From Pseudoxanthomonas dokdonensis (lineage in GTDB: Bacteria; Pseudomonadota; Gammaproteobacteria; Xanthomonadales; Xanthomonadaceae), in assembly GCF_001431405.1 (NCBI RefSeq), contig NZ_LDJL01000005.1, positions 186,001 to 250,000 on the forward strand: DNA of 64,000 nt. The letters are read 5' to 3'. Every line of letters starts with the position of its first letter. Position 1 is the first letter of the stretch. The notes beneath the pieces were generated by a model, which was not told the origin of the DNA, searched no databases, and was given only the letters and a program-made list of their open reading frames with translations. The position numbers and the translations under genes are program-made. This document shows positions 5,281 to 43,978 of the stretch, one piece after another.

Positions 5281-6192
5281 TCAGAGGGCGACGCTGTCCA
5301 GTAGCGCCAGGAATGCGCGAAGCGCCGGTGAGGGCGGGCGATGGGCCAGCGTCAACTGGTACAGCGAACGCTGCAGCGACGATGCCGAAGACGATGGCCA
5401 TGCAACCACGTGCACCCGTTGCAGCTGCAACAGATCGGCAACCACCACCCGCGGCAACAATGACACCCCGTCGCCGGCTGCCACCGCTTGGGCAATCGCT
5501 TCGTTGCTGCCCATCCTCAGCTGGCGTTCGGGCAGCAGCGACTGTTGTGCTAGCCATGCCTCGATCATCTGCCCAGTGCCGGAACCGGCTTCGCGGGTCA
5601 GCCAGAGACAGGACGTCAGCATCGCCGCGGTCACCGTCGCCGTGCCTGCCAGGGGGTGCTGGCTGCCACAGACCAGCACCAGCGGTTCCTCTCGCCACGG
5701 TACCGCCTGGATGCCGGTTTCGCTGACCTGTCCTTCAACCCAGCCGATGTCGAGCCGGTAGTCCAGCAGCGCCTGGGCGATATCGCAGGTGTTGCCGATG
5801 CGCAGTTCGACATCAATGGCCGGATGCAGGGTTTTGTAGCGCGCCACCCACCGCGGCAGCCAGTAGCCGCCGATGGTGGTGCTGGCACCCAGGCGCAGGG
5901 CACCCGCCTTGATCTGGGCGCGATCGGCCATGTCGTCGCTGGCGGCCTGCTCCAGCGCGAAGATGACCCGCGCATGCTGGTGCAAGGCCTCACCGTGGCC
6001 GGTCAGCTGCACGCCGCGCAGGCTCTTGCCGTCCAGCGGGCTGCGTTCCAGCAATGGCAGGCCGAGCTGGTGTTCGAGCTGCTTGAGCGCCTTGGACACC
6101 GCCGATTGGGTCAGGCACAACGCCTGCGCGGCGCGGCTGACGCCACCGTGTTCGACCACCGCCAGGAAAACGCGCAACCGGTGCAGATTCAT
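5281..6192 (-). CDS. LysR-family transcriptional regulator (YeiE-like)
   Basis: 303 residues from ATG at 6192, which places the helix-turn-helix at the usual distance from the N-terminus (MNLHRLRVFLAVVEHGG). An in-frame ATG at 6213 would add seven residues; neither has a strong ribosome binding site. The N-terminal winged helix (SRAAQALCLTQSAVSKALKQ) is followed by a two-lobed effector-binding domain. It is divergent from the YeiH-type gene with about 100 bases between them, the arrangement seen for yeiE/yeiH, so autoregulation and control of that gene are expected. The effector is unknown. Confidence 0.9.
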   Translation of the reverse strand: MNLHRLRVFLAVVEHGGVSRAAQALCLTQSAVSKALKQLEHQLGLPLLERSPLDGKSLRGVQLTGHGEALHQHARVIFALEQAASDDMADRAQIKAGALRLGASTTIGGYWLPRWVARYKTLHPAIDVELRIGNTCDIAQALLDYRLDIGWVEGQVSETGIQAVPWREEPLVLVCGSQHPLAGTATVTAAMLTSCLWLTREAGSGTGQMIEAWLAQQSLLPERQLRMGSNEAIAQAVAAGDGVSLLPRVVVADLLQLQRVHVVAWPSSSASSLQRSLYQLTLAHRPPSPALRAFLALLDSVAL

Positions 6193-6291
6193 CGCTGCAT
6201 GAGCCAGATTCATGTATTGATGAAGTATATGCGTTTGATTCCATCAGGCCAGCCAGCCACGCTTGTCGCTGGCAACGATGGAACTGGCGAC

Positions 6292-7329
6292 ATGGCAACC
6301 CTGGCACCCACAACGCAGCCGCGACCGGCACTGGGCCTGATGCTCTGTCTCGCAGTCGCCCTGGCCGGCATGGCCCTGGGCCAGCTGCCATGGCTGCAGG
6401 CGCATGGGCTGGGCGCGCTGACCCTGGCGATCATCACCGGCATCGTGCTGGGCAACACCGTGTTTCCGCGCTGGGCAGCGGCCATCGGCAGCGGCGTGGA
6501 TATCGGCAAGGGCCGGTTGTTGCGCTGGGGCATCGTGCTGTACGGGTTCCGGGTCAGCCTGGCCGATATCGTCGCGGTTGGGCCGACCGGCCTGGCCATC
6601 GACGCGCTGATGCTGGCCTCGGTATTCCTGCTGGCGGTGTGGGTCGGCACCCGCTGGCTGAAGCTGGACCGCGACACCGCGATGCTGATTGGCGCCGGCA
6701 GCGCCATCTGCGGCGCCGCGGCGGTGCTGGCCACCGAGCCGGTGCTGCGCGCGCCGGCGCACAAGGTCTCGGTGGCGGTGGCGACAGTGGTGGTGTTCGG
6801 CACCGTGGCGATGTTCCTCTACCCGCTGCTGTATCCACTGATGGGGATCAGCGCGCACGGCTACGGCCTGTATGTCGGATCGACCGTCCACGAAGTCGCC
6901 CAGGTGGTGGTCGCCGGGCAGGCCATCGGCAGCGACGCCGGCCATGTCGCGGTCATCGAGAAAATGTTGCGGGTGATGCTGCTGGCACCGTTCCTGATGC
7001 TGCTGTCGGCGTGGCTCACCCGCGGTACCGCTCAGCCGGGCGGTCATGCTGGCCGGCGCATCAGCGTGCCGTGGTTCGCGCTGGGGTTCATCGCGGTCAG
7101 TGCATTCAATTCACTGTCGTGGTTGCCGTCGACGACGCTGGCCTGGATCAACCTGCTGGACACGGTGCTGCTGGCCACCGCGATGGCCGGGCTCGGCCTG
7201 CGCACCTCGCTGGACGCCATCCGCCAGGCCGGCGTGCGGCCGCTGCTGCTGGCGGCAGTGCTGTTCGGCTGGCTGCTGGTCGGTGGCTTCGCCGTCAATC
7301 AAACGCTGCAGGCGTTGCTGGCTGGCTGA
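6292..7329 (+). CDS. YeiH-family membrane protein (putative sulfate exporter family)
   Basis: 345 residues from ATG at 6292, the family's usual length. In-frame ATGs at 6220 and 6229 are possible but add a non-hydrophobic tail. Roughly ten transmembrane helices are visible, with the family's conserved GAGSAICGAAAVLA segment and GSTVHEVAQVVVAG. Members are annotated as putative sulfate exporters on thin evidence; the true substrate is uncertain. It is divergent from a LysR regulator, which supports regulation by it. Confidence 0.88.
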   Translation: MATLAPTTQPRPALGLMLCLAVALAGMALGQLPWLQAHGLGALTLAIITGIVLGNTVFPRWAAAIGSGVDIGKGRLLRWGIVLYGFRVSLADIVAVGPTGLAIDALMLASVFLLAVWVGTRWLKLDRDTAMLIGAGSAICGAAAVLATEPVLRAPAHKVSVAVATVVVFGTVAMFLYPLLYPLMGISAHGYGLYVGSTVHEVAQVVVAGQAIGSDAGHVAVIEKMLRVMLLAPFLMLLSAWLTRGTAQPGGHAGRRISVPWFALGFIAVSAFNSLSWLPSTTLAWINLLDTVLLATAMAGLGLRTSLDAIRQAGVRPLLLAAVLFGWLLVGGFAVNQTLQALLAG

Positions 7330-7858
7330 AAGGCAACGCCTGCGACGGTAATCACGGCATTGCGCGCCGCGTGGGCCCGGCCTGGTCCACAACCTTCCGC
7401 TGTTCAGCGGGCATGCCTCGACTGACCCGTCTTGCGTTGCAGCAACCGGCGCAGCAACCGTTGTCTTTCATCCACGACCGCCGTTGATCTCAATCAAATA
7501 CAGCGGCGCCGGCACCGGGTAATATTGACTCGAGTAACACCTTATGCTCTTTTGGTGTCGGTAATGACAGCATCAACGTGCCGACCTCGATGACGGATCC
7601 GGTCGGTTGGCAATACTTGCATCGGAGCCACTTTTGCCTCCTCCGCCAGGGGCAAGCCGCCACGCTGGAACACTTCGTCCGCCGCCCTGCCCGCCCCGGT
7701 CGCGTCGCCAGCCAGCCCAGAACGAACCCATCAACTTGACACAAACACCACCAGACGGCGCTTGCCGTTTCCCTGCCGATGGATAGCAGGCCGTTGGTGC
7801 ACCGCGTTCCCCCGAGCAGCGACTCATTGATCTCTACACAGGAAAGTTGGAGTCTGAA
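7330..7858. other. 529-base non-coding region with a predicted anaerobic promoter
   Basis: I see no convincing gene. A frame at 7590-7739 would encode 49 residues but has no ribosome binding site. The notable content is a perfect FNR/ANR box with a correctly spaced -10 element (7484-7525) directed at the alkylsulfatase, which would give an untranslated leader of about 330 bases. ACACC (about 7537-7541) and GGTGT (7554-7558) can pair early in such a transcript. Confidence 0.55.
7484..7525 (+). promoter_or_regulatory. Perfect FNR/ANR box with class II-spaced -10 element
   Basis: TTGAT-CTCA-ATCAA at 7484-7497 matches the FNR/ANR consensus TTGAT-N4-ATCAA exactly. TAATAT at 7520-7525 begins 29.5 bases from the centre of the box, the geometry expected for a class II promoter with the activator centred at -41.5. 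The predicted transcription start is near 7532. No comparable -10 lies on the other strand at this distance, so direction is +. Confidence 0.65.
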
Positions 7859-9949
7859 ATGAAAAACACCCATAGCAAATTGTTCCTCGCCTGCACCGCG
7901 CTGATGTTCGGCGTGGCCGGCTGCAAGGACGGCACCCCTGCCGCCAATGGCGATACGGCCAGCGCGCCAACCGCCTCGGCCAATGCCGCCGGCAATACTT
8001 CCAGCGGCGATTACCAGTTCAGCGATGCACAGAAGGACGCCACCGACTACACCCGCGACGCCAACCAGAAGGTACTCGGCGAGCTCGACTTCGCCGACAA
8101 GACCGCATTCGCCGACGTCGACCGTGGCTTCATCGCCCCGCTGCCCAACAACGGCGACATCGAGGGTGTGTTCAGCGCCACCAAGATGAACTTCATGCAG
8201 GACAAGGACGCACCGGCCACGGTCAATCCCAGCCTGTGGCGGCACGCACAGCTGGTCAATCGCGGCGGCCTGTACCAGGTCACCGATCACATCTACCAGG
8301 TGCGCGGCCAGGATCTGGTCAACCTGAGCATCATCGAAACCGACAACGGCATCATCCTCTACGACATCGAGTACTTCGCCGACACCCTGGCGGCCTCGAT
8401 CAAACTGTACGAGGAACATCGCGGCAAGAAGCCGCTGAAAGGCGTGATCATCTCGCATAGCCACGCCGACCATTTCGGTGGTTTCGACGGCATCTACAAA
8501 GCAGGCCTGGCAACCAGGGAAGACTTCAGCAGTGGCAGGATCCCGCTGATCGCACCGGAAGGTTTCGTCAAGGAATCGGTCAGTGAAAACGTCATGGCCG
8601 GCAACATCATGGCCCGTCGCGCCGGTTACCAGTACGGCAACGTGCTGGAACCCGGTCCCAAGGGCTCGATCACCGCGGCGCTGGGCGCTGCGCTGGCCAA
8701 TGGCGCCTCTTCGCTGCCGATCCCCAACAAGAGCATTACCAAGGATGGCGAAAAGGTCACCATCGATGGCGTGACCTTCGAGTTCTACCTGACCCCGCAT
8801 GCCGAAGCCCCGGCCGAGATGGTGTTCTACATCCCGCAGTGGAAGGCGCTGTCGATGGCCGAGGAGCTCAACCACCTGCAGCACAACATCTACACCCTGC
8901 GTGGCGCGCAGACCCGTGATGCCAGCGTCTGGGCCTCGTACCTGGGCGCGGCGCTGGCACGCTGGGGCAAGGACGTGGAGGTCAACTTCGGTCCGCATAC
9001 CTGGCCGGTGTGGGGCAACGAAAACGTCACCAAGTACCTGGCCGACCAGCGCGACCTCTACCAGTCGATCTACAACACCACCCTGCGCTACGCCAACTAC
9101 GGCTACCGCCCGGATGACATCGCCGAATCGGCGGCGCTGCCGAAGTCGGTGTTCAACGAGTGGAACAACCGTCCGTATTACGGCAGCACCAAGAACAACC
9201 TCAAGGCGACCTATGTCCGCAACCTGGGCTGGTTCAACGGCAACTCGACCGAGCTGGCCAAGTACCCGGACGGCGAACGTGGCAAACGCTACGTCGAAGC
9301 CATGGGCGGCGAAGGCAAGGTGCTGGATGCGGCGCTGGCCAGCTACAAGAAGGGCGACTACCGCTTCACCGTCGACCTGCTCAACAACATCGTCGCCTAT
9401 GACGGCAGCAACAAGAACGTCAACCTGCTGATGGCCGATGCCTTCGAGCAACTCGGTTACCAGGAGGAAAACGCGCTCTATCGCAACCTGTACCTGTCCA
9501 GCGCCAAGGAACTGCGCATGGGTGGCAGCGTGCCGAATGCGCTGAGCACGATTTCGCCGGAAGTGATTGCGGCGTTGCCCGCGGATCTGTTCATGTCCTA
9601 CATCAGCATGACCGTGGATCAGACCAAGGCCGAGGCACTGGGCGATTACACCGTCAACGTCGACCTGCGTGGCGAAGGCAAGTTCCGCCTGGACCTGCAC
9701 AACGGTGTGCTCAATTACCTGCAGGGCTATTCGGCCGACAAGCCTGATGCGGCGCTGAGCATCGGCAAGACTGATCTGATCGCGGTCGCCGCCGGCAAGG
9801 CCAAGCTCGACGATCTGGCCGGCAACGGCAAGGCCGCCATCACCGGTGACAAGGAAGTGCTGAACAAGATTGCCAGCGTGTTCGACAACGGGATGAAGAA
9901 CAACATGAACCTGGTACTGCCGCTGCAACCGGAAAACCAGATCAAGTAA
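7859..9949 (+). CDS. Lipoprotein alkyl sulfatase of the metallo-beta-lactamase fold (SdsA1-like)
   Basis: 696 residues; GGAG six bases upstream fixes ATG 7859. The signal peptide ends in the lipobox GVAGC (Cys22) followed by a low-complexity Ala/Thr/Ser linker, so the enzyme is probably membrane-anchored. The catalytic domain has the di-zinc motif HSHADH (H200, H202, D204, H205) and the family segments MAEELNHLQHNIYTLRGAQ and FGPHTWPVWGN. A dimerisation region and a C-terminal SCP2-like domain (about 580-690) follow. This class hydrolyses primary alkyl sulfates such as dodecyl sulfate to alcohol and sulfate. It ends at a bidirectional terminator. A predicted FNR-type promoter lies upstream. 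The exact substrate is not deducible. Confidence 0.93.
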   Translation: MKNTHSKLFLACTALMFGVAGCKDGTPAANGDTASAPTASANAAGNTSSGDYQFSDAQKDATDYTRDANQKVLGELDFADKTAFADVDRGFIAPLPNNGDIEGVFSATKMNFMQDKDAPATVNPSLWRHAQLVNRGGLYQVTDHIYQVRGQDLVNLSIIETDNGIILYDIEYFADTLAASIKLYEEHRGKKPLKGVIISHSHADHFGGFDGIYKAGLATREDFSSGRIPLIAPEGFVKESVSENVMAGNIMARRAGYQYGNVLEPGPKGSITAALGAALANGASSLPIPNKSITKDGEKVTIDGVTFEFYLTPHAEAPAEMVFYIPQWKALSMAEELNHLQHNIYTLRGAQTRDASVWASYLGAALARWGKDVEVNFGPHTWPVWGNENVTKYLADQRDLYQSIYNTTLRYANYGYRPDDIAESAALPKSVFNEWNNRPYYGSTKNNLKATYVRNLGWFNGNSTELAKYPDGERGKRYVEAMGGEGKVLDAALASYKKGDYRFTVDLLNNIVAYDGSNKNVNLLMADAFEQLGYQEENALYRNLYLSSAKELRMGGSVPNALSTISPEVIAALPADLFMSYISMTVDQTKAEALGDYTVNVDLRGEGKFRLDLHNGVLNYLQGYSADKPDAALSIGKTDLIAVAAGKAKLDDLAGNGKAAITGDKEVLNKIASVFDNGMKNNMNLVLPLQPENQIK

Positions 9950-10000: not shown

Positions 10001-10030
10001 AAAAAAGCGCCCTGTCCGGGCGCTTTTTTT
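10001..10030. terminator. Bidirectional intrinsic terminator
   Basis: GCGCCC (10007-10012) pairs with GGGCGC (10018-10023) around a five-base loop, with six A's before and seven T's after. It serves both the sulfatase and the convergent outer-membrane-like gene. Confidence 0.92.
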
Positions 10031-41800: not shown

Positions 41801-43978
41801 GCCACGCAACAGCGCGATCTGGCGCCAGCTCAGGCCAGCGGCCAGCACCAGCCGGTTGAAACCATCGTTCTCGGCATTGCCGTGCCAGATGTTGGCGAAT
41901 GCTTCCTCGAAAATGCCGCTGATGCGCTCGACGTCGAACTCGCCGTTGGCCGCCTGCACCTCGAACTGCTGGATGTAGGCCACTTCGCCGTTGGCTTCCA
42001 GCCGGTACGGATGTTCGGAAATGACCCGCAGGCCCATGTTCTCCATCATCGGCAACGCATCGGACAGGGCGATGTCGGCTGCCTGGCGGTACAGGTTGAG
42101 GCGCAGGTTGCCTTCGCCGGCGCGCGGCCGCGAGGCGCTGTGCAGGCTCAGGCGCAGATCCTCGGGCCCGCTCAGGGCGCTCAGATTCTGGACATCGTTG
42201 GCCGCCAGTTCGGCGGACACGGTTTCGATGTAGCCAGCCGGCAGGGCGCGACCGAAATGGTTGGTCAGCTTCAGCCCTTCGGACTCGCCATGGCGGCTGA
42301 TCAGGGTTTCGCGCAGATCGTCCTGCCAGTTGCGCAGCAGATGGGCCAGTTCGCTTTCGAGCTGGGCGATGTCGACCGCGACGCGCTCGCCATCCTTCGG
42401 CCGGATGGTCACATGCAGCTGCGCCAGCGGTGACTCGCCCAGCTGCACGTTGGTATCGACGTATTCGCCGTGCAGTTCCTTCTTCAGCAGCGCTTCGATG
42501 CGCAGGCGTACGTCGGTATTGAAGCGTTCGCGCGGGATGTACACCAGCGCCGAGAAGAAGCGGCCGTAGCGGTCGCTGCGCAGGAACAGTTTGCTGCGCA
42601 CGCGTTCCTGCAGACCGAGGATGCCCATCGCGGTGCGGGTCAGTTCTTCAGCCGAGGACTGGAACAGCTCCTCGCGCGGCAACGTCTCCAGGATGTGCCG
42701 CAGCGCCTTGCCGCTGTGGCTGCTGGGCGACAGGCCGGACTGGCGCATCACGTGTTCGTGGCGCTCGCGCACCATCGGGATTTCCCACGGCCGGCGGTTG
42801 TAGGCGCTGGAGGTATACAGGCCGATGAAACGCTGCTCGGCAATCGGGGTGCCCTTGGCGTCGAATTCGAGCACGCCGATGTAATCCATGTTGCCCGGGC
42901 GGTGCACGCTGGAGCGATGGTTGGTCTTGGTCAGGATCAACGCGTCCAGGGTGTTGGACTTTGACAGCTGGTGCGCGGCCAGGGTCTTGACGCTGCGCGG
43001 CGCGCCGGCGTCCTTGTCGCGCAGCAGGCCCAGCCCGGTGTCATCGACCGCCTTGAGGATGCCTTCGCCGCTGCCCTTCTCGACCCGGTATTCGCGATAG
43101 CCGAAGAAAGTGAAGTGATCGTTGGCCGCCCAGCGCAGGAATTCCTGCGCCTCGTGCCGGCCGCTGTCGCTGACCGGCAGCCGCCGGGTGGCCAGATCAT
43201 CGGCCAACGCCAGCATCTTCTCGCGCATCGGACCCCAGTCGCGGACGATCGCCCGCACCTGCTGCAACACCTCGGCGATACGCTTCTCGATCGAGGCCAT
43301 GTCGGCGGCGGCCTGGCGGTCCACTTCCAGCAGCATCATCGACTCCGGCTTGCCTTCGCCGATGGCCTGGATGCGGCCGGCCTTGTCGCGTTGCACGCGC
43401 ACCAGCGGATGGCCGAGCACGTGGATGCCAATGCCCATGTCGGCCAGCGCCATGCTGACCGAATCGACCAGGAACGGCATGTCGTCGTTGACGATCTGCA
43501 CCACTGTATGCGGCGACTCCCAGCCGTCCTGCTTCAGGCTCGGGTTGAACACCCGTACATTGGCGGCGCCGGGCTTGCGCACCCTGGCAAAGGCCAGCAT
43601 CTCGCTGGCGATGGCTGCCCAGCTCTGCGGCGGGTGATTGGGGTATTCGTCGTCTTCCATGCGCTTGTAGAACGACGTGGTGAACGCTTTTGCTTCTTCC
43701 TGGCGCGCGGCCGGCACGATCTTGCGCAGCTCGGCCAGGATCGGGTCGAGCGAGAAGCCGGTCGAGCGATCAACGGCATCGTTGACCTTCAAGGTCCTGG
43801 CCTGCTGAGTGGTAGTTAAATGGCCTGCTCGTGGCGGCTTCGAAACCTTGGCTGCCGGCTTCGCGGATGACGATTTTGCGGTCTTCGCCTTGGCCGGCGC
43901 GGCGTTCCTTGCGGGGGTGCTTGATGAGGTCTTGGAGGGTTTTTTTACAGGCTTTTTGGTGTTGCGGGCAGCGTTCAT
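38861..43978 (-). CDS. NAD-specific glutamate dehydrogenase, giant (GDH-180-type) class
   Basis: 1,705 residues from ATG 43978; an in-frame TTG nine bases upstream is an alternative. The first ~65 residues are Lys/Ala/Pro/Ser-rich and look disordered. An N-terminal regulatory region with ACT-like segments (about 95-700) precedes the catalytic core, which shows LRFGPVARGGLRWSDRREDF, LVKAQMVKNTVIVPVGAKGG and DMSGDVFGNGMLLSEHIRLV. A long C-terminal helical domain completes it. It oxidatively deaminates glutamate to 2-oxoglutarate with NAD+, mainly for amino acid catabolism. It could draw on amino groups from pathways such as the one at 22.9-33.1 kb. Confidence 0.97.
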   Translation of the reverse strand: MNAARNTKKPVKKPSKTSSSTPARNAAPAKAKTAKSSSAKPAAKVSKPPRAGHLTTTQQARTLKVNDAVDRSTGFSLDPILAELRKIVPAARQEEAKAFTTSFYKRMEDDEYPNHPPQSWAAIASEMLAFARVRKPGAANVRVFNPSLKQDGWESPHTVVQIVNDDMPFLVDSVSMALADMGIGIHVLGHPLVRVQRDKAGRIQAIGEGKPESMMLLEVDRQAAADMASIEKRIAEVLQQVRAIVRDWGPMREKMLALADDLATRRLPVSDSGRHEAQEFLRWAANDHFTFFGYREYRVEKGSGEGILKAVDDTGLGLLRDKDAGAPRSVKTLAAHQLSKSNTLDALILTKTNHRSSVHRPGNMDYIGVLEFDAKGTPIAEQRFIGLYTSSAYNRRPWEIPMVRERHEHVMRQSGLSPSSHSGKALRHILETLPREELFQSSAEELTRTAMGILGLQERVRSKLFLRSDRYGRFFSALVYIPRERFNTDVRLRIEALLKKELHGEYVDTNVQLGESPLAQLHVTIRPKDGERVAVDIAQLESELAHLLRNWQDDLRETLISRHGESEGLKLTNHFGRALPAGYIETVSAELAANDVQNLSALSGPEDLRLSLHSASRPRAGEGNLRLNLYRQAADIALSDALPMMENMGLRVISEHPYRLEANGEVAYIQQFEVQAANGEFDVERISGIFEEAFANIWHGNAENDGFNRLVLAAGLSWRQIALLRGYCKYLLQTGVPFSQSYIEETLNRYPLLARLLIELFEARFDPAVGRESKAEIQAGRERFAQQLRALADGDDVTRKALQEVLDAREGSREQQASVTHRVLLKLMDRVSSLDDDRILRGFMGAMEATLRTSYYQRDAHGQPAQTISFKFDSAQVPDLPKPRPYREIFVYGPRVEGVHLRFGPVARGGLRWSDRREDFRTEVLGLVKAQMVKNTVIVPVGAKGGFFVKRPPLTGDRDAVLAEGIACYKLFIQGLLDITDNIVDGKIVPPQNVVRHDQDDPYLVVAADKGTATFSDIANGLAIDHNFWLGDAFASGGSVGYDHKGMGITARGAWESVKRHFRAMGRDSQSQDFTAVGIGDMSGDVFGNGMLLSEHIRLVAAFDHRHIFLDPNPDAARTFKERQRLFALPRSSWADYDSKLISKGGGVYPRSLKSIDITPQIREALDIAEGVSTMTPNELMSAILKSPVDLLWNGGIGTYVKAVGESHADVGDRANNGLRVNGRDLRCKVVGEGGNLGLTQLGRIEAAQQGVLLNTDFIDNSAGVDTSDHEVNIKILLNGVVQAKKLTQPARNKLLADMTNEVGELVLWDNYRQNQALSLMERMSASRLGSKQHFIQTLESQGLLDRQIEFLPSDTELAERKSRGLGMTRPELSVLLSYSKLVAFQQLLESDIPEDPYLSKELQRYFPKPLQKKYANEMENHRLKREIIATAVTNTTINRMGATFLLRMQEDTGRTPAEVAKAFTITRETLDARELWTQIDALDGKVPESVQIDALQTIWQVQRTFTRWLLTRQGPIPAIATAVDRYHDGFNEIRAAEGVLPDSLRPTYDASLATWKRKGLPVGLAGQLAALPYLEPSCDIIELARERKLKPVEVSKVHYRLGEALHLPWLLAQIEALQVDGRWHAVARGVLRDELASHQRTLTGQVLKMPGNSAEAKVHQWMQRDEPGLRFTLQMLDEVAAQKSLDYPTASVAVQRLAQLASKA

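Follow-up and report, generated by a model that had tools for sequence, protein, structure and literature searches.

A predicted FNR-type class II promoter as the best reading of the DNA upstream of an alkylsulfatase gene in Pseudoxanthomonas dokdonensis

The closest described relatives of the locus considered here are the class II promoters of FNR/ANR-type regulators and the alkylsulfatases of the SdsA1/YjcS/Pisa1 type. In Pseudomonas, hemF (qor/hemF), hemN and cioA are reported as members of an Anr core regulon common to five species, Anr boxes are also described for gap, and cioA is given as Anr-repressed (PMC6588701), so that the presence of a box need not mean activation. The expression of alkylsulfatases is described as tied to sulfur demand, constitutive or inducible (PMC3920027, PMC6107682), while denitrifying Pseudomonas strains are reported to use SLES and SDS without oxygen, with sulfatases invoked (PMC5486822). 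Sulfatase action without oxygen is thus not odd in itself. No report of an FNR/ANR-controlled alkylsulfatase was found among the papers listed in searches of the open-licence PMC literature.

The window analysed here, a 64,000-base stretch of the P. dokdonensis genome, contains an alkylsulfatase gene preceded by a box of this type. The features of the region are as follows.

5281..6213, minus strand: LysR-family regulator; best NCBIfam model YeiE, below its cut-off (209.9 versus 480 bits)
6292..7329, plus strand: YeiH-type membrane protein (PF03601), from Pfam; start codon chosen by eye
7484..7497, plus strand: FNR/ANR-type box TTGATCTCAATCAA with a palindromic core, an exact TTGAT-N4-ATCAA match
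7520..7525, plus strand: predicted -10 hexamer TAATAT, 22 bases past the box
7532, plus strand: predicted transcription start, from the box-hexamer geometry with the box at -41.5
7532..7858, plus strand: predicted leader of 327 bases; no significant match to Pfam, no Rfam family, a fold that is not unusual and no terminator-like site on the plus strand
7859..9949, plus strand: alkylsulfatase-family protein of the SdsA1/YjcS type, metallo-beta-lactamase superfamily, 696 residues, from Pfam and PDB relatives
10001..10030, no strand assigned: inverted repeat with A and T runs, a probable bidirectional terminator, by eye

Box and hexamer are located in the 529-base gap between the end of the YeiH-type gene (7329) and the start of the alkylsulfatase gene (7859). 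A first-pass annotation had claimed an exact TTGAT-N4-ATCAA palindrome with a TAATAT hexamer at the distance expected of an activator centred at -41.5, and both claims were borne out. The palindrome at 7484-7497 is the only exact match in the window, its centre falls at 7490.5, and TAATAT, which agrees with TATAAT at four of six positions, begins 29.5 bases farther on, with the predicted +1 falling at 7532. When up to one mismatch is allowed, the window holds two box matches (the second, with one mismatch, at 42927), a number which is not unusual (shuffle mean 0.67; 17 of 100 shuffles reach two), and the weight of the case therefore rests on the exactness of the box and on its geometry. No sigma-70-type promoter with both hexamers was found in 7300-7900, as would be expected if an activator is needed. 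Three weak terminator-like sites are present at 7447-7517.

The same annotation held a chance agreement of box and hexamer to be improbable, and the genome-wide counts point in this direction. The 3.55 Mb genome contains nine exact boxes and none of the reversed pattern, and 105 boxes with up to one mismatch versus 15 reversed; under a post-hoc order-1 Markov model, 1.3-1.6 exact boxes would be expected per 3.55 Mb. For the combination of box, N21-23 and TAnnnT the same post-hoc model expects 0.02-0.04 occurrences per genome, and three were found, upstream of hemF (spacer 21), of cydA, encoding cytochrome bd oxidase (spacer 23), and of the alkylsulfatase gene (spacer 22). The Poisson probability of at least three TAnnnT hexamers at 21-23, given the nine boxes as 18 oriented sites and likewise calculated post hoc, ranges from 4e-5 with the composition of the window to 1e-3 with that of the 529-base gap. 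On inspection of open reading frames (ORFs), five of the nine exact boxes look intergenic (upstream of hemF, cydA, a GAPDH gene and the alkylsulfatase gene, with one close to an unassigned gene of contig C3) and the other four are situated inside coding-like ORFs.

A comparison across the genus places the window site within a recurrent pattern. Box, N21-23 and TAnnnT were matched 120 times, in 33 of 38 genus genomes, versus no match of the reversed control in any of the 38. Of these matches, 89 have a spacer of 22, 19 one of 23 and 12 one of 21 (the three sites of the P. dokdonensis genome counted), where equal likelihood would give about 40 each, with the reservation that many of the matches are orthologous and so not independent. 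The window site, with a spacer of 22, has the modal spacing of the genus. Thirty of the 120 matches were fetched as loci, on which the distances and the weight matrix reported here rest, and the downstream ORF of each was picked by a codon-bias rule. Pfam assigned nine proteins encoded downstream of such sites to HemF, cytochrome bd subunit I, hemerythrin, cupin, alcohol dehydrogenase, HemN, Usp and ABC transporter, with one left without a match; the tenth protein scanned, GAPDH, follows a box that lacks the hexamer geometry. By eye, the sites upstream of the hemerythrin, Usp, alcohol dehydrogenase, hemN and hemF genes recur among the 30 fetched loci. As a by-product, the analysis gives a usable genus-wide catalogue of predicted FNR class II promoters, 120 in all.

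Two PF00027 proteins are encoded in the genome at E <= 0.001. One of them (L005) is of the CRP/Clp type and reaches 317.5 bits on the CRP model, above the cut-off. The second (L006) scores best against the FixK, FnrL and Fnr models, all below the NCBIfam cut-off, and its solved relatives in the PDB are FixK2 and FNR. It contains cysteines at positions 32, 35 and 43 (C-x2-C-x7-C) and 131, which we take to hold a [4Fe-4S] cluster, and a helix ETVSR, which presumably recognizes an FNR-type half-site. Each of the 29 genus orthologues aligned has these cysteines and this helix unchanged; they are the loci from other genomes among the 30 returned (some match, in several cases a weak one, was obtained in 37 of 38 genomes). 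An FNR-type regulator with the putative cluster cysteines and an E-SR helix is thus present, though no FNR, FnrL or FixK model passes its cut-off. The cysteine spacing of L006 differs from the C-x2-C-x5-C of the solved FNR chains aligned with it. Its gene (G000:C12) and cydA are separated by about 3.6 kb, in which ABC-transporter-like ORFs are recognizable by eye.

The best reading of 7484-7525 is an FNR-type class II promoter activating the alkylsulfatase gene, a reading that we regard as evenly balanced between right and wrong, while FNR binding at 7484-7497 in itself is probable. It would be an ordinary kind of FNR promoter with a somewhat unexpected target. The first-pass proposal of a class II FNR/ANR promoter driving an alkylsulfatase gene is therefore retained in part: it is favoured by the box, the modal spacing, the regulator, the alkylsulfatase gene as the next one in the same direction and the low chance expectation, and weakened by the sequence context, the distance to the start codon and the boxless nearest homologues. 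In the scheme that follows from this promoter reading, falling oxygen would lead to a [4Fe-4S] FNR dimer on the box at -41.5, the bound FNR would contact RNA polymerase to give a transcript from near 7532, and this transcript would pass through the long leader into the alkylsulfatase gene at 7859-9949; of this scheme, the sequence shows the box, the hexamer, their spacing, the regulator gene and the gene downstream, and we infer binding, start site, oxygen response, read-through and substrate. If true, a link between sulfated-surfactant hydrolysis and oxygen limitation would help to account for the breakdown of detergents under anoxia, and the locus would be a clear case of an old regulon taking in a newly acquired gene. 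No narG match was found in the genome, and nitrate respiration was for this reason rejected as physiological context; micro-oxic respiration via cytochrome bd is the likelier setting.

Among the alternatives, a coincidence or worn-out relic, with a palindrome and a TAnnnT at the right distance that give no FNR-controlled transcript, survives best, and we consider it rather unlikely. It draws on the sequence outside the core. To score this, a weight matrix was built from the spacer-22 sites of other members of the genus, 17 in number after removal of redundancy, and applied by leave-one-out with the pattern-defining letters masked (8 of 25 distinct spacer-22 sites were dropped as at least 70% identical, the hemF site of the P. 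dokdonensis genome, L130, was left out, and spacer-21 and spacer-23 sites were scored but had no part in training the matrix). The masked score of the window site is -13.8 versus -8.0 to 16.2 for the held-out sites, whose scores are flattered by the orthologous promoters included in the matrix, and 79% of the window positions reach or beat it. With the full matrix the window site scores 13.75 (rank 3 of 127,894 positions) versus 19.4-43.6 for the held-out sites; scores of 13.8 and 13.6 are reached at two window positions that lack an exact box. The context outside the defining letters resembles random DNA and scores below every other site scored, and no resemblance of the flanking sequence to the other promoters of the set, which would have supported the promoter reading, was found. 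The hemF and cydA sites of the same genome, both with the hexamer TAGACT, score well (8.5 masked and 36.0 full for hemF; 0.4 masked and 28.0 full for cydA), and divergence of the lineage is therefore no explanation for the poor fit of the window site. A coincidence or relic is also consistent with the long distance between hexamer and gene and with the four exact boxes in coding-like ORFs, which indicate that chance boxes exist. However, the very low number of box and hexamer combinations expected genome-wide speaks against it, as does L152, among five further genus sites that were scored: it is comparably low (masked -11.5) yet found as the same or a near-identical string in 8 genomes, so that a low context score does not exclude function. 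Sites of this L152 type have a spacer of 23, the hexamer TACCAT and an unusual context.

The distance from hexamer to start codon is 333 bases at the alkylsulfatase gene versus at most 81 in 28 of the 30 comparison loci (the hemF locus of the same genome among them), about four times the largest value in these 28; the two remaining loci, at 168 and 302 bases, possibly reflect wrong ORF choices. This distance argues for a second alternative, an FNR-driven transcript for a purpose other than (only) the sulfatase, such as a short RNA from the leader, an upstream gene that is small or has been lost, or the repression of another promoter, which we regard as improbable. A 53-codon ORF that starts at 7578 would suit it, but a small gene in the leader found no support, as the leader ORFs gave nothing noteworthy in Pfam (best E 0.16) and the 53-residue product has no credible relative in the genus (best other E 0.022). 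The leader of roughly 330 bases noted in the first-pass annotation measures 327 from 7532 to the ATG at 7859, but there is no sign in it of the small RNA suggested there, or of a structured element. The fold of 7532-7864 is no better than that of shuffles (z +1.04, with 83 of 100 equally or more stable), a search of the leader against Rfam returned a chance-level match alone (E 0.93, 15.7 bits versus a gathering score of 70), and no plus-strand terminator-like site was found in 7532-7858. A structured leader, riboswitch or small RNA was accordingly rejected as unsupported by fold statistics and Rfam, and a small RNA or switch in the leader is possible but unsupported. That the site is used by the CRP/Clp-type L005 or another regulator is highly improbable, for although CRP and FNR boxes have a common TGA..TCA core and one of the two PF00027 proteins exceeds the CRP model cut-off, the box is a perfect FNR consensus without half-sites of the CRP consensus TGTGA.

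The gene to which the predicted FNR promoter would lead starts with an ATG at 7859 within the ORF 7847-9949, preceded by an SD-like GGAG at 7849-7852. Its product contains metallo-beta-lactamase (Lactamase_B), alkylsulfatase dimerisation and C-terminal domains, and its solved relatives, PSdsA, YjcS, sec-alkylsulfatase and SdsA1, cover residues ~57-677. HxHxDH is the motif of the type III alkylsulfatase metal site, and it is present here, as SHSHADHFGG aligns with THSHVDHYGG of PSdsA. The N-terminus, MKNTHSKLFLACTALMFGVAGC, is lipoprotein-like with a VAGC lipobox by eye, and the substrates would be alkyl sulfates such as SDS. Given the terminator-like repeat at 10001..10030, a monocistronic transcript is probable.

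Homologues of the alkylsulfatase are scarce in the lineage. At E <= 0.001 they were found in 2 of 37 other genus genomes (40-42% identity), and some match was obtained in 25 of 395 genomes of a family sample (own genome included, best other 42%) and in 41 of 369 genomes of a class sample (own genome included, best other 43%); the best homologue in plasmid records is 45% identical. A peptide-pattern search of 84,980 species genomes, which picks up close relatives alone and may not cover the own species, gave the nearest homologues found, both from other families: one in Enterobacter sp. JUb54 with 73% identity, the other in Morganella psychrotolerans with 69%. Matches to yjcS in E. coli genomes are partial, with at most 18% of the query among the matches listed. 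The isolation of the gene in its lineage suggests a lateral acquisition. In JUb54 (L007 1017-2177) the homologue is situated just downstream of an IS30-like transposase ORF by eye, a position consistent with a mobile type of sulfatase. The P. dokdonensis genome also encodes a second homologue of the alkylsulfatase (G000:C7:124613-126469, L024), which is 40% identical and has no upstream box.

No exact box was found upstream of the gene in any of 40 homologue loci scanned (29 plus 11 from the class sample, the second copy of the own genome included among the 29, some with short upstream DNA such as 408 bases in L012). The two nearest homologues (73% and 69%) lack it, as do the weak or partial homologues L039 and L040. 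In the genus and in the family sample no close homologue was found, and hence no orthologous promoter for comparison. A 41% homologue in an AT-rich genome (L118, 33% GC) has a near-box of 9/10 at 163 bases before its ATG. This was rejected as a conserved site because it is no more than chance would give (277 among 2000 random flanks of 1500 bases and the same composition contain one); other near-boxes at homologue loci are found inside or after the gene. As for conserved intergenic DNA, just one 28-base match of 93% identity was obtained, between window positions 7648-7675, within the leader, and the genus relative G037, and was set aside as short and probably due to chance. On the G037 side it falls in a GGDEF-type coding stretch by eye.

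The genes upstream belong to a conserved arrangement of their own. The divergent pair of YeiE-like and YeiH-type genes is kept in 17 of 17 other genus yeiH loci, three of which show no more than 32-34% identity. Within flanks of ~1.5 kb or less, all 17 lack a box of at least 9/10 as well as this alkylsulfatase gene, and the box was for this reason rejected as part of yeiH. In Salmonella, YeiE and YeiH are reported to confer sulfite resistance (PMC12880088), and the pair at 5281-7329 is probably a sulfite-resistance pair. A sulfur-related gene grouping around the alkylsulfatase is suggestive only. A more far-reaching version of the promoter reading, in which a laterally acquired, outer-membrane-anchored alkylsulfatase has been captured by the FNR regulon beside this sulfite-resistance pair, with detergent hydrolysis switched on as oxygen runs out and the 327-base leader as a second layer of control, is tentative and we think it would probably not hold as a whole.

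Compared to known systems, the locus shares with FNR/ANR class II promoters the exact TTGAT-N4-ATCAA, the hexamer spacing for -41.5 and a genome that encodes an FNR-type regulator, and differs from them in its alkylsulfatase target, in the 333 bases to the start codon and in its ill-fitting context; the hexamer TAATAT also departs from the 17 matrix sites, which mostly have G at the third hexamer position. With hemF, hemN and cioA of Pseudomonas it has the Anr box in common, although class II geometry is not stated for these in the available part of the source (PMC6588701). The anoxic degradation of surfactants by nitrate reducers differs in that the genome analysed here lacks a narG match, and the available part of that source names no regulator (PMC5486822). 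With the type III alkylsulfatases of the SdsA1/YjcS/Pisa1 type the protein shares the Lactamase_B, dimerisation and C-terminal domains and a match over residues 57-677, and it differs from them in a lipoprotein-like signal and in its predicted control by FNR.
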